This document shows positions 5,937-53,499 of a stretch of 64,000 nt of DNA, in pieces. The stretch lies in the NCBI RefSeq assembly GCF_001592735.1, contig NZ_LUKE01000001.1, positions 1,771,018-1,835,017 of the forward strand, written 5' to 3'. Position 1 is the first letter of the stretch. Each line of letters starts with the position of its first letter. Position numbers and translations under genes: made by a program. This stretch comes from Bdellovibrio bacteriovorus. Lineage in GTDB: Bacteria; Bdellovibrionota; Bdellovibrionia; Bdellovibrionales; Bdellovibrionaceae. A model generated the notes under the pieces. That model was not told the origin of the DNA. It did no database searches and saw only the letters and a program-made list of their open reading frames with translations.

Positions 5937-7637
5937 CTACGGTTTTCGAATATAGTTAATAAAAGCAATCATACTTACAAGCAGGGCGATGCCATAACCT
6001 ATAAAGCTCATTGTCGGCATACCCATGACGTGATTTTCCGTCGGATGAACAAAAATAAAGGACGAGCTTAAAATCAAAGATCCGATAATCAAACCCAAGA
6101 ATAACAAGTTGGCTGAACTCTCGACAGAACGCTTCAGATCTGTGACCTCGTTTAACTTTAAACGAAACGCGTGATTAGGACTGTTGATCTTGCGTAAAAA
6201 GAAATTCAGCTGACGAGGAAGCGCATTTAAAAACATTTTTGATTCGCGCGCCATTTGCGTCATGTCATTCATCATGCGCTGCGGACCGAAGTGAGTTTTG
6301 GCGATGTCTTCTGCAAACTGCAGGGAGTATTTTAAAACGTCAAAATCCGGATTGATCTTACGACCCATGCCTTCAATGGAAATAATGGATTTAAAGAACA
6401 GCATTAAATCCGGAGGAACCTGCAGATGATGGCGAGCCGCAATCCCGGCGGACTTCATTAAGACTTTGCCTAAGTTCACATTTCTTAAGGTCAACCCAAA
6501 ATAGGGGGCAATCAGCTCCCGTAAATCTTTGGCGAAAACATCAATATTCACACGGTCCGTGAACGGCGCTAAATCGACGTACTCGTAAGCCAGGCGTTCA
6601 TAGTCTTCTTTCGACATTGCCAAAAGCATATTGGCAATGGCGGCCTGGGTGCGTGTGTTTAAACGGCCCACAACGCCGAAATCAATCAGCCCGATCTTAT
6701 TGTGCGGCAATATAAAAAAATTCCCCGCGTGCAGATCGCCGTGGAAAATGCCGTCGTCAAAAACCATTTTCAGATAGGCTTTTAATCCCAAACGAATTAC
6801 TTCGTCGGTGTTAATGCCCTCTTGGCGAAGAGCTCCCTCTTGGCTTAACGGGATGCCTGGCAAGGCTTCCATGACCAGGACTCTTTCCGTCGTGTGTTGC
6901 ATGTACATCTGCGGAATCACGATATGTTCGTCAGCTTTAAAGTTTTCTTGAAAGCGGCGGATGTTATTGGCCTCAACGACAAAGTTTGTTTCGAATTCCA
7001 AGGTACGGAAGTATTCATCCACAATGCCGCGAGGGTTGTAAGGATGACTTTCCGGGATATAGGTTTCAATTAACTCCGCCAAAAGATAAAGCACGTTCAG
7101 ATCGTCGTTGATCTTTTGGATAATCCCTGGGCGTTGAACCTTAATAACGACGTGTTCGCCGGTCTTAAGCTGGGCCTTATGAACTTGCGCGATACTTGCA
7201 GATCCTAAGGGTTCAGCATCAATACTTTCAAATTTTTGATAAAGAGAGTTTCCGTATTCTTCACGTAAAACTTCTTCGATAATATTAAATGGAAGCGGCT
7301 GCACGCGATCGTGCAGCTTTTCGAATTCGTTGATGTATTCTTCAGGAACTAAATCGGGGCGGGTCGCAAGAACTTGACCTAGTTTAACAAACGTCGGTCC
7401 CAATTCCTCAAAACTCATGCGCAATCGGACGGGCATCGAAAGTTTTTCGATCTCGTCGCTGGAATTTAGGCGCTCGATGATGAATCTACCGAGCTTTACC
7501 TTTTCCGCGATTTGATGAAACCCGTGCCTTGCGAACACTCCCACGATTGTTCGCAGTCTTGCCGCGTTTTTTAGCGTTTTGCCTATCTGAGTCCCGGTCT
7601 TTAAGGCTGTCACTGTTTCTCTCCGAATTGTCGTCAT
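5937..7637 (-). CDS. UbiB/AarF-family (ABC1) atypical kinase
   Basis: A membrane-associated ABC1/ADCK-type kinase-like ATPase. Visible in order are the KxGQ motif in 'FVKLGQVLATRPD', the alanine-rich-loop equivalent 'GSASIAQVH', the catalytic 'HGDLHAGNF', the metal-binding 'IGLIDFGVVGR', and two C-terminal transmembrane helices. UbiB proteins support ubiquinone synthesis or lipid handling; the exact job here is not shown. I prefer the ATG at 7637; an in-frame TTG at 7664 would add nine residues. The gene starts about 150 bases inside rnr in another frame, with its conserved N-terminal region encoded within the overlap. Confidence 0.9.
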   Translation of the reverse strand: MTTIRRETVTALKTGTQIGKTLKNAARLRTIVGVFARHGFHQIAEKVKLGRFIIERLNSSDEIEKLSMPVRLRMSFEELGPTFVKLGQVLATRPDLVPEEYINEFEKLHDRVQPLPFNIIEEVLREEYGNSLYQKFESIDAEPLGSASIAQVHKAQLKTGEHVVIKVQRPGIIQKINDDLNVLYLLAELIETYIPESHPYNPRGIVDEYFRTLEFETNFVVEANNIRRFQENFKADEHIVIPQMYMQHTTERVLVMEALPGIPLSQEGALRQEGINTDEVIRLGLKAYLKMVFDDGIFHGDLHAGNFFILPHNKIGLIDFGVVGRLNTRTQAAIANMLLAMSKEDYERLAYEYVDLAPFTDRVNIDVFAKDLRELIAPYFGLTLRNVNLGKVLMKSAGIAARHHLQVPPDLMLFFKSIISIEGMGRKINPDFDVLKYSLQFAEDIAKTHFGPQRMMNDMTQMARESKMFLNALPRQLNFFLRKINSPNHAFRLKLNEVTDLKRSVESSANLLFLGLIIGSLILSSSFIFVHPTENHVMGMPTMSFIGYGIALLVSMIAFINYIRKP

Positions 7638-43630: not shown

Positions 43631-44224
43631 TTAGGAATTCTTTACGCTGTAGGGCGCCAGCATTTTATTTACCAATGTCATCGGCAGACCCACTATATTG
43701 TCGAAGGCGCCATCATAACGCAGCACAAAATTTCCACCGAGACCCTGAATGCCGTAAGCGCCGGCTTTATCCATGGGTTCGCCGGTCTGGATGTAATTCC
43801 AGATTTCTTCATCGGTCAGATTTTTAAAATGAACTTTGGTTGTCTCAGATTGAGAAATTTCTTTTCCTGACAGACTGTCGATAACGCAGACACCGGTGAT
43901 CACATCATGACTAATGCCCGACAAAAGTCGCAGGATGCGATAGGCGTCTTCTGGACTTTGGGGCTTTCCTAAAGGGGAATTTTCGAAAATCACCTCGGTA
44001 TCGGCGGCTAAAATGATAAACGGCTCGTTTTTTTGAGCTTTGACCTGGTCAAAAGCCGCGCGCGCTTTTCGTGCTGAGATATCTAAAATTTGGTCATGAA
44101 CATTTAGGTTTTTGTTAGGAATTTCCGATACTTTAGAAGGAACCACGTCAAAGTTGTAGCCAGCTTTTTTTAGAAGTTCGCGACGGCGTGGAGACTCTGA
44201 TGCCAGAATAAGTTTCGGTGTCAT
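43631..44224 (-). CDS. maf: Maf-like nucleoside triphosphate pyrophosphatase
   Basis: A 197-aa cytoplasmic pyrophosphatase of the Maf family that hydrolyses dTTP/UTP or modified nucleotides. Signatures are 'LILASESPRRRELLKKAGY', 'ILAADTEVIFE' and 'YGIQGLGGNFVLRYDGAFDNIVGLP'. The gene starts 28 bases from the divergent tadC-like gene. Confidence 0.94.
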   Translation of the reverse strand: MTPKLILASESPRRRELLKKAGYNFDVVPSKVSEIPNKNLNVHDQILDISARKARAAFDQVKAQKNEPFIILAADTEVIFENSPLGKPQSPEDAYRILRLLSGISHDVITGVCVIDSLSGKEISQSETTKVHFKNLTDEEIWNYIQTGEPMDKAGAYGIQGLGGNFVLRYDGAFDNIVGLPMTLVNKMLAPYSVKNS

Positions 44225-44252: not shown

Positions 44253-45161
44253 ATGGGAAGTGCAGAGTTAATGCTCATTCTAGGTCTGCTCCTTGCGGGA
44301 GTAGCGGTCTTTCTATTTGTGAATTCCATCTTCGCCAGCAACAGCGATAAGCAACAGCTCTCTTGGGCGAATAACACCGAACCCGCAAAATCAAAAAACG
44401 CGATCATCAACTTCTCGCGTCCGCTGGTGCATCAGTTCACTCTGCAACATGCTTTAAGAATTCGCAGTGAAAGTTATCGCAAGCGGGTTCGTAAGTACAT
44501 TCTGACGTCCGGATTGTCGGCAGAGCTGAATGAAGATGAATTTATCGGCTTGCAGCTTTTATGGGGAATCATGTTCCCGATCTTCATGTTGGTGATGAAT
44601 TTTTCTCTGCAATTAGGTTTTTCACCTTACATCATGATCGGTGTGGGATTTATTGGCTTTTACTTGCCGCAAATTCATGCGCGTGGAGCAAAGAAGAAAC
44701 GTGAGCTCTCGGTGCGTGCCGATCTGCCATTTTTTATCGATCTTTTGGCCTTGTCAGTAGAAGCGGGTCTGGACTTTTTTTCGGCGATTCAAAAAATCGT
44801 GGATAAATCACGCAATACCGACAGCGTCTTGGCAGATGAACTAGGAACTGTTTTGAAAGATATCAAAGTCGGTGCTTCTAAGTCACAAGCTTTGAAAGAC
44901 ATGGGTGAGCGGTTGGATATGAACGAAATCACCAGCTTCGTGGCCGTCTTAGTTGATGCCGAAGCGACCGGGGCCAGTATTGCCCAGGTCTTAAAAGATC
45001 AGTCCGTGCAGATGCGTTTGGAAAGATTCGTTCGCGCAGAAAAAGCAGGAGCAAGAGCTTCGCAAACGATCCTGATTCCTTTGATGTTATTTATTTTGCC
45101 AGCGGTATTCATTGTGGTCTTTGGACCGGTCGCCGTTGGGTTTATGTATGGTGGTAAGTAA
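44253..45161 (+). CDS. tadC: TadC-like type II secretion F-domain protein
   Basis: A 302-aa inner-membrane protein with N-terminal helix, a pair of helices near residue 105-145 and two C-terminal helices around the T2SSF domain ('ADLPFFIDLLALSVEAGLDFFSAIQ', 'MGERLDMNEITSFVAVLVDAEATGASIAQVLKDQS'). This is the TadC pattern of Flp-pilus and Tad secretion machines. No tadA, tadB or pilin lies in the window; TadC usually sits beside TadB. It is the first gene of a six-gene operon with FHA proteins. Whether the rest of the machine is at another locus cannot be seen. Confidence 0.85.
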   Translation: MGSAELMLILGLLLAGVAVFLFVNSIFASNSDKQQLSWANNTEPAKSKNAIINFSRPLVHQFTLQHALRIRSESYRKRVRKYILTSGLSAELNEDEFIGLQLLWGIMFPIFMLVMNFSLQLGFSPYIMIGVGFIGFYLPQIHARGAKKKRELSVRADLPFFIDLLALSVEAGLDFFSAIQKIVDKSRNTDSVLADELGTVLKDIKVGASKSQALKDMGERLDMNEITSFVAVLVDAEATGASIAQVLKDQSVQMRLERFVRAEKAGARASQTILIPLMLFILPAVFIVVFGPVAVGFMYGGK

Positions 45162-45162
45162 A

Positions 45163-45510
45163 ATGACAGCGTTGATGAACAAAACCACAAATACGACATT
45201 GATTCCTCACTTGGGAGTTGCTGACAACTTCTTTACGCGGGGTAAGGGCCTTTTGGGGCGAAGCACGCTTTCGGCGGAAGAAGCTCTGTGGATTCATCGT
45301 TGTAACAGCATTCATACTTATTTTATGAAATTTCCGATCGACTGTGTTTTCGTGGATCGTGATTTGAAAGTAAAAAAAATCTATCGCAACGTCGGCCCTT
45401 GGAGATTTATTTTTCCGGTATGGGGAGCAAGCTCGGTGATTGAAATGTCAGCCGGGACGGCGGCGGATTTAAAAATCAACGTAGGGGATCAACTGCATGT
45501 GGGCACTTAG
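45163..45510 (+). CDS. DUF192 protein
   Basis: A 115-aa protein whose core 'RGKGLLGRSTLSAEEALWIHRCNSIHTYFMKFPIDCVFVDRDLKV' and 'VIEMSAGTAADLKINVGDQL' define DUF192. It lacks the usual signal peptide, so it is probably cytoplasmic. The ATG at 45163 starts one base after the tadC stop. It ends 14 bases into the first FHA gene. Function unknown; in other Tad-like loci the same family is occasionally present. Confidence 0.88.
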   Translation: MTALMNKTTNTTLIPHLGVADNFFTRGKGLLGRSTLSAEEALWIHRCNSIHTYFMKFPIDCVFVDRDLKVKKIYRNVGPWRFIFPVWGASSVIEMSAGTAADLKINVGDQLHVGT

Positions 45511-47158
45511 GATTTTGACCGGCCCTCAAGCGGGGCAACTGATAGAGCTTAAGTTAGGTAAGAACCTGATTGGTCGGGCTCCGCAGTGTGATATTAAATT
45601 AGTTAGCCCGGGTGTTTCTAAGGAACACACCGAGGTCGCGGTTTTTAAAGATAAGATCGTGGTGACGGATTTAAAATCCAGCAACGGGACCTACTTAAAC
45701 GGTATTCGTATTCAAAACAGTCTGATGCGCTTGGGTGATAAACTGGGTGTGCATGACGTATTACTAGATGTGATTCCGGCGCCCGAAGCACGCGCGACCA
45801 GTCCCCGTACGACGACAACTCACACAGGGACCGGAGTTCCGGCCCCGATGATGTATCAAGATGGTGGAGCGGCTGCGCAGATGCCACCGATGGGGATGAC
45901 TCAACCAGGAATGCCTCACGGAATGCCGCAAGCTATGGGTGGAATGCCTGGCGCAGGTCCGGCCCCCGCGCCCGCATACTCGCAAGGTGGTATTAAAGGC
46001 CTTATGGATAAGTTCCATGAATACATGGATCGTGTTGCGTTGCCAGGTGTTTACAAACTGCCACAGTTTGTAGAATTCAAATTAGTCCTTTTAGGATTTG
46101 TGGTTTTATTTATCTTCACGACCACTTTGCTTTCGATGATTCCGATGGTCGCGATTACCAGAGCCAGCATTATTAACGAAAGTAAGCGTCGCGCGGCATC
46201 GATTGCTCGTACGATTGCGACGATCAATCAAGCGGCACTGTTGCAGAATAACTATTCATCACTAAGTACGAATGCGGCTGAATCTGAAGAAGGTGTTACA
46301 CAAGTTTTAATTGTGCAACAGTCTGATGGATTAATTTTAGCACCGGCGACTCGTGCGGGCACCACGCCGGATTTGCCGTTTGTACACACGGCACGTAGAG
46401 AGATGCGCCCGCAAGCCGTTGAAATTGATAGCTCAACTATTGGGGCGAGCTTCCCGATAGGTTTATTTGACCCCAGTACGGGTGAGCAATCAGTGAAAGC
46501 CCATGCGATCGTTCTTTACGATATCGGAAGCTTGGCTTTTGATGATGGTCGCGCCATCAGTTTATTTATGCAGACCCTCGTGATTGCTTCGATTGTGGGA
46601 TTGTTGATTTATTTCTTTATGTATAAGTTGATTGAATTTCCAATCAATTCCTTAAATGCGCAGTTAGACACCGCGATGAGAGAAAAACAAGATAACACAC
46701 AAGTGAACTTCTTATTTCCTCCTCTGCAAGCTTTGATTGGCAATATCAATAGTTTGCTAACTCGGTATATCCACGGGGATACCGAAGGGGGCTCGTCGGC
46801 GGCGGGATTTGTTAATAAAGACGGTGAAGCTGAAAACCTAGTGCAAATCGTAGGCTTCCCCTGTATCGCGATTTCACGCGAAGGTCGTATTATCGCTTGT
46901 AATGCCGCCTTTAGCCAAGTGGCGCGTGCCGAAGTCTCGCAATTGCAGGGTCAGCCCTTTAAATCTTTACCGGATTTAGCTTTGCAAAAAAATATTGAGG
47001 GCCTTGTCGGGCGGACTCTTGAAAACTTACGTGGGATCCACACGGATCAGTTGGAATTCAGCGGACACTTGTGCGTGCTAAGTTGCCAAGCAATGGCGAC
47101 CGGAGAAAATGTAGATTATTTCTTGATCACGGTTTCACCCACTGAGGGAGGCTCTTGA
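45497..47158 (+). CDS. FHA-sensor membrane protein (FHA - TM - sensor - TM - PAS)
   Basis: A 553-aa protein. Residues about 1-95 form a complete FHA phosphothreonine-binding domain ('LIGRAPQCDIKL', 'VSKEHTEV', 'SSNGTYLNG'). A Met/Pro/Gly-rich linker runs to about residue 175, then membrane helix 1 (about 195-220), an extracytoplasmic segment of about 130 residues, membrane helix 2 (about 357-380), and a C-terminal PAS-like domain ('GFPCIAISREGRIIACNAAF'). The architecture is that of a sensor with an FHA input or output but no kinase. Overlaps both neighbours. Confidence 0.85.
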   Translation: MWALRILTGPQAGQLIELKLGKNLIGRAPQCDIKLVSPGVSKEHTEVAVFKDKIVVTDLKSSNGTYLNGIRIQNSLMRLGDKLGVHDVLLDVIPAPEARATSPRTTTTHTGTGVPAPMMYQDGGAAAQMPPMGMTQPGMPHGMPQAMGGMPGAGPAPAPAYSQGGIKGLMDKFHEYMDRVALPGVYKLPQFVEFKLVLLGFVVLFIFTTTLLSMIPMVAITRASIINESKRRAASIARTIATINQAALLQNNYSSLSTNAAESEEGVTQVLIVQQSDGLILAPATRAGTTPDLPFVHTARREMRPQAVEIDSSTIGASFPIGLFDPSTGEQSVKAHAIVLYDIGSLAFDDGRAISLFMQTLVIASIVGLLIYFFMYKLIEFPINSLNAQLDTAMREKQDNTQVNFLFPPLQALIGNINSLLTRYIHGDTEGGSSAAGFVNKDGEAENLVQIVGFPCIAISREGRIIACNAAFSQVARAEVSQLQGQPFKSLPDLALQKNIEGLVGRTLENLRGIHTDQLEFSGHLCVLSCQAMATGENVDYFLITVSPTEGGS

Positions 47159-48267
47159 TGGGGGCTGCCAATCAGTTAAAAGAAGCTTTGAAGTTTGATA
47201 TTGAGGTCACAAAAGGCCCTCATACGGGCATGCGTTTAAGCTTCTCAAAACAGATTGTCGGTATCGGGCGCGGACCTGAAAACGATATTATTTTATCGTC
47301 AGATCCTCGTAGCAGCCGTAAGCATGCTGAGATTCGTCAGCGTGATAGTGATTTTGTGATCGTCAATTTAAGTGAAAAGAACTTTATCTTGGTCAATGGC
47401 CAAACTGTTCAAACCGAAATCCTGACTCCAGGTTCGGTCATTCAAATTGGTGATTCAGAAATTCGTTTCAACCAAGAGATCTCGCAAATCAAGCCAGATC
47501 TTGCGGCCGTGCCATCGGTTTTTTCAACGCCGACGCCTCCGCCAATGCCATCGACACCTCCGCCAGCACCGATGGCTTCACCCAAAGCGCAAATGCCTGC
47601 GCGCCCCCAAGTGGCTTCCGCCCCGGCGATGCCTCGTCCGCAGACTCAGAATATGGGTTATGGTGGTTATCAACCACCGCCAGCTCGTCCGGCAGGTGCG
47701 GGTGTGGGTGGAGGGCCGTTATCAAATCCGAAAGTTCGTTTTTATGGAATCATCGCGATCATTGGGTTGGTGGGATATTATCTGTTCTTTTCGGACAGCC
47801 CTAAAGCTAAAAAAGATCCGAATGCTTTCCGTACTTCAGCCATTTCAATGCAAGAAGTGGCGGCGGCGCAAAAACGAACTGAAGAGATCATGACCACCAA
47901 AAAAGAAAAATATGATTCCGTTCAATATCGTCGTGCCCAGGAAAACTTTATCAAAGGTTTCCGAGACTATCAGCAAGGTCAGTACGCCCGAGCACGCGAA
48001 GCTTTCCAAGTGGTGTTAAACTTAGATCCGGAAAATGAGTTGGCAAAACGATACTATCATTTAGCCAAAATCAAATTTGATGAGTTAGTTAAATTTAATA
48101 TGATTCAAGGAAACCGTTATCGAGAAAAACGCAACTGGAGAATGTGCCAGTCCAATTACTCAAACGTTATGACTATGCTGCAGCACCGTAAGGATGACCC
48201 AAGTTACAAAGAAGCCAAACAATTCTTTGAAGAATGCACATTGAACTTAGAAGGAGGACGATACTAA
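47158..48267 (+). CDS. FHA-TPR membrane protein
   Basis: A 369-aa protein: FHA domain at about residues 15-105 ('GIGRGPENDIIL', 'SSRKHAEI', but 'NFILVNG' where NGTxxNG is usual, so phosphopeptide binding may be weakened), a Pro-rich linker to about 180, one membrane helix at 193-212, and TPR-like helices from about 258 ('FIKGFRDYQQGQYARAREAFQVVLNLDPENELA'). GGGAGG lies six bases before the ATG at 47158, which overlaps the previous stop by one base. The TPR part is on the far side of the membrane. Confidence 0.85.
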   Translation: MGAANQLKEALKFDIEVTKGPHTGMRLSFSKQIVGIGRGPENDIILSSDPRSSRKHAEIRQRDSDFVIVNLSEKNFILVNGQTVQTEILTPGSVIQIGDSEIRFNQEISQIKPDLAAVPSVFSTPTPPPMPSTPPPAPMASPKAQMPARPQVASAPAMPRPQTQNMGYGGYQPPPARPAGAGVGGGPLSNPKVRFYGIIAIIGLVGYYLFFSDSPKAKKDPNAFRTSAISMQEVAAAQKRTEEIMTTKKEKYDSVQYRRAQENFIKGFRDYQQGQYARAREAFQVVLNLDPENELAKRYYHLAKIKFDELVKFNMIQGNRYREKRNWRMCQSNYSNVMTMLQHRKDDPSYKEAKQFFEECTLNLEGGRY

Positions 48268-50282
48268 TGGCTCGCCTCCGTGTACGACTTCGTGGAAAAC
48301 CCATCTATGATATCACCCTTTCTGAAGACCGCTCCTACGTTGCGGGCCGTAAGGAAGATTGCGATATCGTATTACAACCTGAAAAAGGTATTTCGCGCGA
48401 GCATTTCAAAGTCTCTTACGTTGACGGTGTTTGGCAGGTAGAGGTTGTTTCTCGTTATGGTGAAGTGATTCACAACGGGGAACAGATTCAGCACTTAGAC
48501 CTGACTCATGGAGTGCTATTTTCTTTACCTCCGTATGAGTTTGATTATTTAAACACGACAGATGAAGTGGCCAAAGTGGACTCTTCATCAAATCTTCCGG
48601 CCTTGACGGGCGTGCATGAAGGGGCTGATTTCAGTGGCAGTGAAGAAAAAACTGTTATTGGTGTGGCCCCTACATCGGCCTATATAAAAATGGTGGATGT
48701 CGATAATGAAACCCAAGAAATGATTCGCCTCGATGCGGGGGATTCGTGGGTTGCGGGGCGGGAATCTAGCTGCCATATTCATATTCGTGATCCTCGTGTC
48801 AGCCGACGCCAGTTTGAAATCCGTCGCGCGGGCTCGCAATACGTGATTATTGACTTGGGCAGCGTGAATGGAACTTTGGTGAACGGCAGTCCGATTTCAT
48901 CAACTGAAACCACGCCAATTCGCAGTGGCGACGCGATCAGTGTTTTAACCAATTATCTTTATTTTGAGTTGCATGATTCTCACTTCCAAAACCGTTTGGA
49001 TATGGTGGATTTACCGCCGCCAAACCCTTTGGTCCCGGTGGGAGGGCAAGATTCCGCGCCAGTGGAATATCAACAGCAATCTCCGCATGAACTCATGCCT
49101 TATCACAATCATGCGGGCGTGCCGATGCAATATGATCCGCATGGACAGCCTTATCCGCTAGGGCCGGTGACCCCACCGCAACCGGTGGGGAAGCAAAAGT
49201 TTGATTTCCAAAAAAATCGCCCTAAGCTCATTATTGGGGCGGTGGCGCTGTTATTGGTGGCGTACTTGTTTAGCGACACCGGCGGTGGGCCAACACCCAC
49301 CGGACCGGTAGGGGCCGCCCCAGGTTCCCCGGCAGAAGTTTTTAATAAACTTAAACCTGAGCAGCAGGCTTTGGTTCGTCAGCGATATAAGGATGCGAAA
49401 AACTTGTACATGCAAGGAAAGTATCAATTAGCGCAAGATGAAATCGTAAAAATTCAGGAACTGGTTCCGGATTATGAAGACATCAAAGAAATTGAGCGTC
49501 TTTCGAAAGAAGCGATTTACATTCAAAATGAAGCTATTCGCCAAGCACAAATAGAAAAAGACAAAGCAGAAGCGGAAGAAAAATTTCAAAAACAAGCGAC
49601 GGTCTGTGAAAAACAAATCAATTCACAAACCACGATCGCGCAGCTTGAGGACTGTATCAGCCCGGTCTTGCAGTTCAATCCTGAACATCCTAGATATCTG
49701 GCAATGAGAATGCGGGTTGAAAGCTTCATGGCGCAAAAAGAAGCCCAGGATGCACAACGCTTGGCTCATCAGTCCCAAGTGGCACAGTTACGAGGAATGT
49801 ATAGCCGAGCTCAAGATGTGCATAAAAAGGGAAAACCTTTGGATGCCATCACCGCTTATGAAAAAGTGGCGGATTCAAGATTGCCGGACCCTTCAGGATT
49901 AAAGGCCCAATCAAAACGTGCTATTGCGACGATTCGTCAGCAAATGAACTCCAAGACCGCCAGCTTGCAAAGTGAAGCGCAAAAGTTCTATGAGTCGCAA
50001 AATTTAAAAGGCGCGATCATGGCTTTGCGTAAAGCTCGTATCATGGATCCCAACAATCCAGAGCTGCCAGAAAAAATCGAACTTTACACCACCGAACTGC
50101 GTAAGCAGATGATGAATATCTATCAAGAAGGAATTCTTGAAGAAAGCTTTGGTAACGTCGATGGTGGTGAGTCTAAAGCGGGGGCCAAAGACAAGTGGAA
50201 AAAAATCATGGAACTTGATGTGACAGATGGTGAGTACTATAAAAAGGCCTACATCAAGTTAAAAAAATACGGAGCTCTTTAA
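48267..50282 (+). CDS. Double-FHA, TPR membrane protein
   Basis: A 671-aa protein with two FHA domains (about 8-85, 'VAGRKEDCDIVL...ISREHFKV'; about 140-230, 'VAGRESSCHIHI...SRRQFEI...SVNGTLVNG'), a Gln/Pro-rich linker, one membrane helix at 321-337 and a long C-terminal helical part with TPR-like repeats and a charged coiled coil (about 420-450). The second FHA has Gln where His normally follows the binding Ser-Arg. ATG at 48267 overlaps the previous stop; AAGGAGG lies upstream. It extends the layout of the preceding gene. Confidence 0.85.
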   Translation: MARLRVRLRGKPIYDITLSEDRSYVAGRKEDCDIVLQPEKGISREHFKVSYVDGVWQVEVVSRYGEVIHNGEQIQHLDLTHGVLFSLPPYEFDYLNTTDEVAKVDSSSNLPALTGVHEGADFSGSEEKTVIGVAPTSAYIKMVDVDNETQEMIRLDAGDSWVAGRESSCHIHIRDPRVSRRQFEIRRAGSQYVIIDLGSVNGTLVNGSPISSTETTPIRSGDAISVLTNYLYFELHDSHFQNRLDMVDLPPPNPLVPVGGQDSAPVEYQQQSPHELMPYHNHAGVPMQYDPHGQPYPLGPVTPPQPVGKQKFDFQKNRPKLIIGAVALLLVAYLFSDTGGGPTPTGPVGAAPGSPAEVFNKLKPEQQALVRQRYKDAKNLYMQGKYQLAQDEIVKIQELVPDYEDIKEIERLSKEAIYIQNEAIRQAQIEKDKAEAEEKFQKQATVCEKQINSQTTIAQLEDCISPVLQFNPEHPRYLAMRMRVESFMAQKEAQDAQRLAHQSQVAQLRGMYSRAQDVHKKGKPLDAITAYEKVADSRLPDPSGLKAQSKRAIATIRQQMNSKTASLQSEAQKFYESQNLKGAIMALRKARIMDPNNPELPEKIELYTTELRKQMMNIYQEGILEESFGNVDGGESKAGAKDKWKKIMELDVTDGEYYKKAYIKLKKYGAL

Positions 50283-50968
50283 TGAAAATTCAAGATCGCT
50301 CGTATAGCACCAAGATTTTTAGACCAAAACCTTTGATTCATAAAGAAGATGATGGCTCCTTGATCGTCATTGCAACCTCATGGGGTCAGCCAGAGCATGC
50401 CGAGCGCGCTAAAGAGGAAGTGGTTAAATACGTCACGGCAGCAAAATCCGACGTCGAGGTGACTTCGCCGTTTGAATTCCTCACGTGTTTGTCTGACGAA
50501 GTGAATTACGTGCGCACGGGCGTTTTGATTGCTAATGATATTCTTTATCGAGGCGAAAATCGCAATGAATACTTTTCGGGTGTGGAGCTTTTAGCGGTAT
50601 TTAAGCGCGGTCCACAGGTCGCTTGGGCGCAGGTGGGATGTCCTAGCTTATTTATTCGTCGAGCGCGTCAAGGGATGCAGCCTTTATCTATCGGACAAGA
50701 CCTTTCGGCAGAGATGTCAAACGCGGATGAAACATTGCCACCCTTGCCTTCGCAATTATTGGGATTAGATCCCACTTGCTATGTGCAGTGCGGGCATACT
50801 TATGTGAAAGACGAAGATCAGCTGGTGTTATTGGCAAGCACCGCTGTTTCAACTTCATTATGGGTTCAGAACTATGAAGATCTGCAGTTGTCGTCGGTCA
50901 CTCAAAAAATGATTCAGGAAAATCCAGAGTCGCCATTTTGGTTGGGCTTAATCAACATGACGGAATAA
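50282..50968 (+). CDS. PP2C-like protein lacking metal-binding residues
   Basis: A 228-aa soluble protein I read as a degenerate PPM/PP2C phosphatase. 'LIVIATSWGQPEHAERAKEEVVKYV' matches motif II ('xxxxDGxGGxxxGExAS') with the Asp replaced, and 'FSGVELLAVFKRGPQVAWAQVGCPSLFIRR' matches the 'GTTxxxxx...VGDSRxYLxR' strand pair with Cys-Pro in place of Asp-Ser. Metal-dependent catalysis is therefore unlikely. Its ATG overlaps the stop of the FHA gene. A pseudophosphatase partner of the FHA proteins is the simplest idea, but the fold call itself rests on weak similarity. Confidence 0.6.
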   Translation: MKIQDRSYSTKIFRPKPLIHKEDDGSLIVIATSWGQPEHAERAKEEVVKYVTAAKSDVEVTSPFEFLTCLSDEVNYVRTGVLIANDILYRGENRNEYFSGVELLAVFKRGPQVAWAQVGCPSLFIRRARQGMQPLSIGQDLSAEMSNADETLPPLPSQLLGLDPTCYVQCGHTYVKDEDQLVLLASTAVSTSLWVQNYEDLQLSSVTQKMIQENPESPFWLGLINMTE

Positions 50969-50976
50969 GCCCGTCC

Positions 50977-52791
50977 TTAGTCAAAGTTTTCTTCGGTTGC
51001 AATTGATTTATAAACGGTATTTTTGATCTTGGCGTATTCGGGCAGGGATAACGCGAGTTCGGTCCGCGAAGGAGCATAGATATTATCGCGTGAGGTATCC
51101 CAAATCAGGCCCGTTGCGATGTTGGTGCGTTGAATTTGTTGATCCAACATATAATTTCGGAATGAGCGCTCAAATCTTTTTCTTTGCGCATCTTTGTTTA
51201 AACCACGCACGTCGGCACGCAACCAATCAATCATTTCTAAAAATAAGGGATCAGAGCAGGCTTTGAGCTGAGCTGTTTCGAAGGTTTTGCTTGAAAGTAA
51301 AAGGAAGCAAGGATCGGTCAGGTGAAGATTTTTGGCATTTAAATGGCGATCAGCCACATACTGCCAAAGCTCGACATTATTTTTAGATCCCAGTTGCTTT
51401 AGGGTGTCCCAACTTTTTTGGTTTAAAGCAATTTGCGCGGTCCAATTTAAAAGATCTACGCTGCGAGGTTGTTGGGCCGAAAGTCGTTTTAAATCTTTAA
51501 GTAAAAGGCCTTCTTGATCGGCGCGCATCCATCGCGAGAAGGACAGGCTTAATTTTGCCGTCCATTCGTTTTCGGGAGGTGAAAATGCCGGGAACTGAAG
51601 TTTGCTTAAAAGATTTTGCAGTCGAGTGGTCGTGGGCAGAATACTTTCCTGTAACAAAGGCAACGGATTGATTTCAAAGCGATCAACCAGCGTATTATAA
51701 AGCAACGGCTTTTCGTCATTGATGTAAAGCACGTGATTTGAAATGGCGGCCGTACGTAAAGGCCCCGCTTTTCTCCAAAGACCCCAGCCGGTTTCTAATA
51801 ATATCGGGCGATCATCAGGCCAGGTGGCGTTCGGACTTTTCAGTACGCCGGATAAAGACGTCGCGGGGAATGAAGAGTCTGAATCCACACTGCTTGTGCC
51901 TAAAATTTCATACAAGGTGCGACCGACATCTACCAAGGAAACGTTTTGGTCGATTTTCCAGTGAATGGCTTGATCGCGTTTGCGCGGTTGTGACGGCTTA
52001 ATAAACAAAGCGACTTGTGTATTTTCCCCGTGCAAGTTTAACGGCGAAAGCTCTTTATACCGGTCACTCGTGGTATGACCGTTAAGTCCCATTAAAACCA
52101 CGGTGGTTGAATCCCAGCGCTTGGATTTTTTTAGGTTTTGAATCAGTTCGTAAAGTGTTTCGTCCAGTTCGTCGAGCTGACTTTCTAGGCTGAGGTTTCG
52201 GGCTTCTCCCAATTCGGTGACCGTTTGGGTGTTGGTGAAAATCAAATCCGGAACGTAAATAACCGTAAAAAAAGAATCACCCGCGACCTCTTGTTTAAGC
52301 CAGGTTGTAAAGGCGTCGGAATTTTTTTTGAAAGGGCGAAATAAAGCAGGAAAGTTTGGAATAACATTGTCGTCAAACAATTCAAATCCCTGGTGCAGTC
52401 CGGATCGACGAAATACCGGAGCGCCACCGGAAAAAAAGCTAGTGCGATAATCTTGCCGTAATGCGATTTCGGCGGCGGTTTCAAATTCCGGTGCCAGTCC
52501 AGGCGCACCGTTGTGACGCACTTTGTGCTGATAAGGGTAAAGGCCCGTTAAAACTGACGCCAATGCAGGAACGGAAAGTGTAGAGGGGGTGTAGGCATGA
52601 GTAAAGCGAACGGACTCGTTGCAAAACAATTGAAAACCAGACCTCTCTGCATCTTCTTGACGGCATGTGATATCCGTAAAGGTCAATTCGTCAACCGCGA
52701 TAACGAGCACCGATGTCCTGTCAGAGGTTTTGCAGGAAATCTGGACTAAGCTCAGTGCTGTTAGAAGAAGAATCAAAATGATGTTCTGCAT
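50977..52791 (-). CDS. Sulfatase-like hydrolase fold, lipoprotein
   Basis: A 604-aa envelope protein with signal peptide ending near 'VQISC' (an imperfect lipobox). Residues about 30-370 follow the sulfatase/alkaline phosphatase fold: 'VLVIAVDELTFTD', 'YTPSTLSVPALASVLTGLYPYQHKVR' and 'TTVVLMGLNGHTTSDR'. The position that is a formylglycine-forming Cys or Ser in CxPSR is in 'LSVPAL', without the Arg, so true sulfatase activity is doubtful; phosphodiesterase or phosphoethanolamine-transferase-type activity is possible. ATG at 52791 is chosen for the signal peptide. The C-terminal 250 residues are helical and unassigned. Confidence 0.75.
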   Translation of the reverse strand: MQNIILILLLTALSLVQISCKTSDRTSVLVIAVDELTFTDITCRQEDAERSGFQLFCNESVRFTHAYTPSTLSVPALASVLTGLYPYQHKVRHNGAPGLAPEFETAAEIALRQDYRTSFFSGGAPVFRRSGLHQGFELFDDNVIPNFPALFRPFKKNSDAFTTWLKQEVAGDSFFTVIYVPDLIFTNTQTVTELGEARNLSLESQLDELDETLYELIQNLKKSKRWDSTTVVLMGLNGHTTSDRYKELSPLNLHGENTQVALFIKPSQPRKRDQAIHWKIDQNVSLVDVGRTLYEILGTSSVDSDSSFPATSLSGVLKSPNATWPDDRPILLETGWGLWRKAGPLRTAAISNHVLYINDEKPLLYNTLVDRFEINPLPLLQESILPTTTRLQNLLSKLQFPAFSPPENEWTAKLSLSFSRWMRADQEGLLLKDLKRLSAQQPRSVDLLNWTAQIALNQKSWDTLKQLGSKNNVELWQYVADRHLNAKNLHLTDPCFLLLSSKTFETAQLKACSDPLFLEMIDWLRADVRGLNKDAQRKRFERSFRNYMLDQQIQRTNIATGLIWDTSRDNIYAPSRTELALSLPEYAKIKNTVYKSIATEENFD

Positions 52792-52869
52792 ACCTTGACC
52801 GGGTGTAATGGTTCTATAGATAATGATGCAATAACTTTGCTCAGTCAAAGACCTTGGAGGAAAAGGCCC

Positions 52870-53499
52870 ATGCTCACGGAAAAAATTTTTGCAGTCGCTC
52901 ATCTTGCGGATCAAGTCATTCTTTGGATTCTTTTAGTTCTCAGCGTATTGAGCATCGGGATGATATTAGAGCGCTTTTTCGCGCTTAAAAGAATTTCAAA
53001 TGAATCTAATCGTGTGCGTGGACGTATCAAATTAGCTTTGCAAAGTAACAGTCTTGAAGATGTCGAAGATCTGGCAAAAGATCATTCTTCGATTGAAGGA
53101 CGGGCGGCAAGTTACGCGATGAAACACATGAGAGACGCTGGTAGCAAGGGTCTTGAGCAAGTCTTTAATACATTTGCACTGACGGAGCGCCCAGAACTTG
53201 AAAAGTTTTTGGGTTTCTTAGCGACGGTGGGATCAAATGCCCCTTACATCGGTCTTTTCGGAACCGTACTTGGTATCATGAAAGCGTTTAATGATTTGGC
53301 GACAGCTCCCGAAGCGGGTCAACAAACAGTGATGGCGGGTATTTCGATGGCCTTAGTGGCGACGGCCGCCGGTCTTTTCGTGGCGATCCCGGCGGTTGCG
53401 GCTTACAACTATTACAGCAAGCAAGTTCGTGGCATTTTCTTGAACATCGAATCGGTGAAAGAGTTGTGCGTTGCTTACGCTAAGAAAAAAGGTGTGTAA
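52870..53499 (+). CDS. MotA/TolQ/ExbB-family proton channel protein
   Basis: A 209-aa inner-membrane protein with three helices. The conserved 'GSNAPYIGLFGTVLGIMKAFNDLA' and 'ISMALVATAAGLFVAIPAVAAYNYY' identify the ExbB/TolQ family. The ATG at 52870 follows GGAGG. Its partner ExbD/TolR begins two bases after its stop. Together they energise TonB- or Tol-type envelope work; no TonB or TolA is adjacent, so which system they serve is open. Confidence 0.92.
   Translation: MLTEKIFAVAHLADQVILWILLVLSVLSIGMILERFFALKRISNESNRVRGRIKLALQSNSLEDVEDLAKDHSSIEGRAASYAMKHMRDAGSKGLEQVFNTFALTERPELEKFLGFLATVGSNAPYIGLFGTVLGIMKAFNDLATAPEAGQQTVMAGISMALVATAAGLFVAIPAVAAYNYYSKQVRGIFLNIESVKELCVAYAKKKGV

Follow-up and report, generated by a model that had tools for sequence, protein, structure and literature searches.

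A six-gene TadC-FHA-PP2C-fold operon of Bdellovibrio bacteriovorus, its conservation across the phylum and its link to the Tad machine

We analyzed a 64,000-nucleotide stretch of the Bdellovibrio bacteriovorus genome (referred to below as the window; G000:C1:1771018-1835017 of a 3.93 Mb genome), in which six plus-strand open reading frames (ORFs) at positions 44253-50968 encode the Tad platform protein TadC, a DUF192 protein, three membrane proteins bearing FHA domains, and a protein with a PP2C fold. An initial annotation of this DNA, made from the sequence alone, had described a co-directional TadC-DUF192-triple FHA-PP2C-like operon whose genes are joined by overlaps or one-base gaps, and the ORFs, their junctions and the Pfam matches agree with that description, as do place and strand. 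The genes of the operon, followed by the two genes that flank it, are listed below.

44253..45161, plus strand: TadC, Tad inner-membrane platform protein, 302 amino acids (Pfam T2SSF, 1e-15)
45163..45510, plus strand: DUF192 protein, 115 amino acids, without a transmembrane segment (Pfam DUF192, 1.4e-19)
45497..47158, plus strand: FHA1, with an N-terminal FHA domain, a Pro/Met-rich linker, a transmembrane segment (~197-215), an extracytoplasmic domain (~216-352) that is weakly Cache/PAS-like, a second transmembrane segment (~353-371) and a cytoplasmic PAS domain (~454-534)
47158..48267, plus strand: FHA2, with an FHA domain, a Pro-rich linker, one transmembrane segment and a TPR-like C-terminal region (Bd0473 orthologue)
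48267..50282, plus strand: FHA3, 671 amino acids, with two FHA domains, a linker, one transmembrane segment and a weakly TPR-like C-terminal region (Bd0474 orthologue)
50282..50968, plus strand: gene 6, PP2C-fold protein, 228 amino acids, predicted pseudophosphatase (Bd0475 orthologue)
43631..44224, minus strand: maf gene, divergent from the operon and outside the module (Pfam Maf, 4e-58)
50977..52914, minus strand: sulfatase-family gene, convergent with the operon and outside the module (Pfam Sulfatase, 1.1e-13)

The published operon and its conservation

Read directly, the junctions comprise a one-base gap between TadC and DUF192 (TAA-A-ATG, with the DUF192 start at 45163), a 14-base overlap of DUF192 with FHA1, a TGATG in which the FHA2 ATG at 47158 overlaps the FHA1 stop, and TAATG at both the FHA2/FHA3 and the FHA3/gene 6 boundaries, FHA3 starting at 48267. 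No other tight run of same-strand genes in the window reaches this length. Pfam FHA matches reached 6e-14, 3e-14 and, for the protein with two domains, 7e-29, and TPR and PAS matches were obtained as well; by hydrophobicity, FHA1 has two transmembrane segments, FHA2 and FHA3 one each, and gene 6 and DUF192 none. Upstream of tadC we found no convincing FliA promoter, the best candidate agreeing at 9/12 positions.

The six genes are orthologous to Bd0470-Bd0475 of B. bacteriovorus, a published operon with a known role in predation, so that the operon itself was already known. The assignment follows from the protein lengths of a relative (L060), whose genes 4-6 encode 386, 674 and 228 amino acids, equal to the lengths published for Bd0473, Bd0474 and Bd0475 (PMC12034629). 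This different Bdellovibrio genome shares the gene set and order of the operon in the window, with 64-86% protein identity per gene and 86% for TadC. Bd0470-Bd0475 are reported to share one operon; an interaction of Bd0474 with Bd0075 was confirmed by bacterial two-hybrid assay, and binding of Bd0475 to Bd0473 was predicted with an interface predicted template modelling score (ipTM) of 0.604 (PMC12034629). Prey killing is lost in the BD0470::tn (tadC) and BD0474::tn mutants and restored by complementation; BD0474::tn retains attachment to prey while losing killing and rounding (Duncan et al., PMC6561027). Furthermore, tadC is downregulated along with the main tad operon in host-independent strains (PMC3818213), and predation is lost in flp pilin mutants (PMC5430801). 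In the published work Bd0475 is called hypothetical, and we did not find its PP2C fold, its degeneration or the phylum-wide Tad linkage in the parts consulted (PMC6561027, PMC12034629); the word 'phosphatase' is absent from the main text of PMC12034629. As far as the literature was searched, the phylum-wide core, the joined loci and the transition from PP2C to pseudophosphatase described below appear to be new.

The six-gene order was kept in 40 loci from the order to which the window belongs, with three exceptions: L074 is without DUF192, L083 has its PP2C gene at another site of the contig, and L088 begins downstream of TadC. Of the 80 named contigs, 57 extend for 5.9 kb or more beyond TadC, and 56 of these keep the full order. 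The sole difference in the 57th (L146/G093) is an ambiguous base (TAN) that masks the FHA3 stop codon, and the FHA3-PP2C fusion it mimics was rejected. Apparent losses of PP2C in other contigs were likewise set aside, since most of these contigs end too early and L133 is a sorting artefact caused by a long ORF start. The gene order also holds for the sister family (f11) and for other classes of the phylum, with PP2C usually sixth; in one family (f20, L208) PP2C is present but divergent. Families f14, f28 and f29 gave no PP2C profile match, yet the six genomes read from them contain the five-gene core TadC-DUF192-FHA1-FHA2-FHA3. Profile matches were obtained for TadC in 363 and for gene 6 in 306 of 369 phylum genomes, and for FHA3 in 139/141 genomes of the order; a scan of the genome collection returned only Bdellovibrionota-type loci. 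Because the order is conserved across the phylum, the arrangement is not due to chance. The initial annotation had named scattering of these genes in relatives as the outcome that would speak against a single module, and none was seen. Taken together, these findings identify the operon as an ancient unit conserved throughout the phylum.

Several observations were made along the way. Same-genus FHA3 matches in L031, L032, L033, L035, L039, L041, L042 and L046 were flagged with one internal stop each, which probably reflects alignment across the start region or an overlapping junction rather than broken genes. In family f12 (L183, L184, L186, L188, L189) the TadC ORF spans 469-521 amino acids owing to an N-terminal extension of ~170-220 residues, which gives weak TPR matches in L186. 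Directly 5' of tadC in L185 (positions 2-913) lies a gene for an EscN/FliI-type ATPase, which may be flagellar FliI and is of interest given the link between Kil and a type III secretion system (Kil-T3SS*) in Myxococcus.

The rest of the Tad machine

The initial annotation had linked the operon to a Tad-type machine and, finding no TadA, TadB or pilin in the window, had suggested that the partners might lie elsewhere; both points were borne out. A genome-wide search for T2SSF domains returned four domains in two ORFs of C2, TadB at C1:1494590, and TadC of the window, which is the only TadC of the genome and, besides TadB, its sole one-domain T2SSF protein. The main Tad locus (L016), 320 kb away, contains pilin-like genes, CpaB, a secretin, TadZ-TadA and TadB, and is without TadC. 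Its TadZ-TadA is a ParA/MinD-TadA fusion of 736 amino acids with the CbiA/ParA domain at the N-terminus, while its three small pilin-like ORFs have no Pfam match and are called pilins by sequence and position.

In several other lineages the two loci are joined. Five loci (L191, L193, L194, L200 and L208) have pilin-like ORFs, CpaB (except in L200, where it was not called), a secretin and TadZ-TadA after the operon, all on its strand. TadB is a gene of its own in L191, L194 and L200, whereas in L193 (13095-15848) TadZ-TadA and TadB appear fused in one ORF of 917 amino acids; the L208 stretch ends inside TadZ-TadA. Pilin-like ORFs also lie downstream of the operon in L204 and, together with CpaB, in L210.

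Some further features of the Tad loci deserve mention. The prepilin peptidase TadV has been reported missing from Bdellovibrio (PMC5430801); the joined locus of L208 contains a peptidase-like ORF, judged by eye only. A conserved Tad-linked RHS protein, which carries DUF6531 in L016 and L191, is encoded after the final tad gene, be it TadB or the TadZ-TadA-TadB fusion, in L016 (7775-9478, minus strand), L191, L193, L194 and L200. Outside the main Tad locus, a 371-amino-acid frame at G000:C1:2092297-2093124 (L020) encodes a further T2SSE-family ATPase, possibly a second CpaF.

FHA-rich Tad systems are already known. The Kil system of Myxococcus xanthus resembles the system described here in having its Tad core in two gene clusters and several FHA proteins; it is needed for contact-dependent killing, and Bdellovibrionales are listed among its carriers (PMC8460266, PMC12075869). 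The two differ in that KilF is an FHA domain fused to the TadA ATPase, whereas here the N-terminus of TadA is a ParA/MinD (TadZ-like) domain, and separate membrane proteins carry the FHA domains. No FHA domain was found among the domain matches shown for the L016 TadA, and none of the genome's FHA matches lies at L016. In Myxococcus, KilD is recruited to the prey junction in a contact-dependent manner.

FHA domains and the PP2C fold of gene 6

Nearly every copy of each of the four FHA domains retains the phosphothreonine-pocket Arg and Ser, and in FHA1 both residues are present in 41/41. The SxNG loop is found in nearly all FHA1 sequences and is kept in FHA3b but lost in FHA3a; in FHA2 it is mostly lost within the order and kept in other classes. 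We infer a cytoplasmic orientation of the FHA domains, which counts of flanking lysine and arginine residues support for FHA3. The extracytoplasmic domain of FHA1 was modelled as a long helix followed by a PAS/Cache-like sheet, with a mean predicted local distance difference test score (pLDDT) of 82.

Gene 6 itself had no match in family libraries, including Pfam, whereas its orthologue in L191 matched PP2C_2 at 7.8e-15, above the curated cut-off. An AlphaFold model of gene 6 (pLDDT 94.5, 50 sequences) retrieved tPphA (2xzv) in Foldseek with an E of 9.1e-13, and aligned to 5iti with a Z of 20.3 and a root mean square deviation of 3.9 over 213 residues (VIA-align). We then scored the metal-binding aspartates of PP2C motifs 1, 2, 8 and 11. 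All 15 orthologues from other classes have the aspartates of motifs 1 and 2; ten of them have all four, and five have these two only. In contrast, within the window's class (the window and 42 others), 42 of 43 sequences have none of the four and one sequence has a single one; the window gene has none, and motif 2 has changed from DGxGG to (S/P)WG in most sequences of the class. Since the metal-binding aspartates are lost, gene 6 in this class is predicted to be a pseudophosphatase. The PP2C-like label given to it earlier thus holds for the fold, while catalysis is predicted to be dead in the window's class. An ordinary PP2C with the usual motifs is encoded elsewhere in the genome (L203, C1:1758805). 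PP2C pseudophosphatases of the TAB1 type offer a fold-level resemblance only, the 2irm chain aligning with gene 6 at a Z of 15.8; TAB1 is an inactive kinase partner.

A possible phospho-relay at the Tad platform

The reading we favor, to which we assign a probability of roughly 0.55, is that the operon belongs to a split, Kil-like Tad (type IVb) pilus machine whose assembly is licensed on prey contact by a membrane-anchored FHA relay. The operon would supply TadC, the inner-membrane platform of the machine, and the relay would control the timing of its assembly. FHA1 is the likely input, with its extracytoplasmic domain between two transmembrane helices, its cytoplasmic PAS domain and its canonical FHA domain, while FHA2 and FHA3 (FHA-transmembrane-TPR) would cross the inner membrane, linking phosphothreonine marks in the cytoplasm with periplasmic partners. 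Upon prey contact, we infer, a Hanks kinase encoded elsewhere would mark a target, and FHA binding would allow TadC to dock with the TadA/TadB motor and the pilus to grow, a step needed for killing and entry once the prey is attached. In classes other than that of the window, the sixth protein would probably be a functional PP2C that removes this mark. Its counterpart in the window's class, having lost the metal ligands, probably binds or scaffolds the FHA proteins without catalysis. A comparable layout, an FHA reader and a PP2C beside a contact-triggered machine, is seen in the threonine phosphorylation pathway of the type VI secretion system (PpkA, PppA, Fha), and PppA (6jkv) aligns with the model of gene 6 at a Z of 18.0. 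Unlike that pathway, the present system has no linked kinase, a PP2C predicted to be dead in the window's class, a Tad pilus, and membrane-anchored FHA proteins with TPR-like parts.

A phospho-signal through the operon is possible because the genome and 366/369 phylum genomes hold Pkinase matches; Hanks kinases above the cut-off in the genome are those at C1:604190 (695 amino acids, with a hydrophobic segment) and C1:1480317. The window contains no Ser/Thr kinase, as originally noted, its sole weak Pkinase match (~6645-6941, minus strand) being, by its sequence, a UbiB/ABC1-type protein. Several findings weigh against the relay. There is no Hanks kinase among the typed neighbours of the operon in any locus, and G302 (L201), which is 94% complete and carries TadC and FHA genes, has no Pkinase match. 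Members of f14, f28 and f29 have no detectable PP2C beside the five-gene core. The FHA1 sensor domain gave weak matches against the PDB, the best in Foldseek being Mlp24 (E 0.023), so that the Cache/PAS reading is weak. In addition, flanking lysine and arginine counts do not support the topology assumed for FHA2, leaving the proposed cytoplasmic orientation supported for FHA3 and not for FHA2. Finally, most members of the order no longer have the canonical NG-T loop in FHA2 and FHA3a, such that half of the FHA domains may not read phosphothreonine; the earlier view of these domains as phosphothreonine binders is supported by the pocket residues of all four and undercut by this loss.

The same loop loss would also fit a structural role in which the FHA proteins form a ring- or collar-like scaffold surrounding the Tad platform, similar to SctD/YscD in type III secretion, with no phosphorylation signal. 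All three FHA proteins also match Yop-YscD_cpl, FHA1 weakly matches an SctD model, and the phosphatase partner is degenerate in the window's class and undetected beside the core in others. However, each of the three proteins scores higher for FHA than for YscD, and a purely structural role needs neither the conserved pocket Arg and Ser nor the SxNG loop of FHA1 and FHA3b; moreover, a PP2C with all four aspartates adjoins the FHA genes in other classes. We consider a purely structural role unlikely, albeit worth serious attention. Still less probable is that the module regulates ordinary output of the Tad pilus, such as surface adhesion or life-cycle phase, rather than a response to prey contact. 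The core is kept in many lineages without a known lifestyle and the layout of FHA1, with its PAS domain, is that of a general sensor, but the killing defects of the tadC and FHA3 mutants, which in the latter arise after attachment, and the loss of predation in flp pilin mutants argue otherwise. That the genes merely share an old neighbourhood without a functional link is very improbable: maf adjoins TadC in loci of the order and of f11, and a sulfatase-family gene often flanks the operon within the order, but the other classes examined change these flanks and keep the core. Since maf was seen beside the operon only in the window's class, the persistence of the core is not accounted for by mere syntenic inertia, and the loci in which it is joined to other Tad genes largely refute this explanation.

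With respect to the sixth gene, we suggest tentatively, at less than even odds, that PP2C lost catalysis at the base of Bdellovibrionia and became an FHA- or kinase-binding pseudophosphatase gating assembly of the predation pilus. If so, a reversible phospho-switch of the sister classes would have become non-catalytic in this class of predators. The authors of the work on Kil suggested a sensory system among its FHA-rich genes of unknown function (PMC8460266). The findings discussed above narrow that search space to a defined module of five to six genes, comprising the platform protein, one FHA protein with the layout of a sensor, two FHA-TPR proteins that cross the membrane, and a PP2C that appears to be intact in sister classes and is predicted to be dead in the class of the window.

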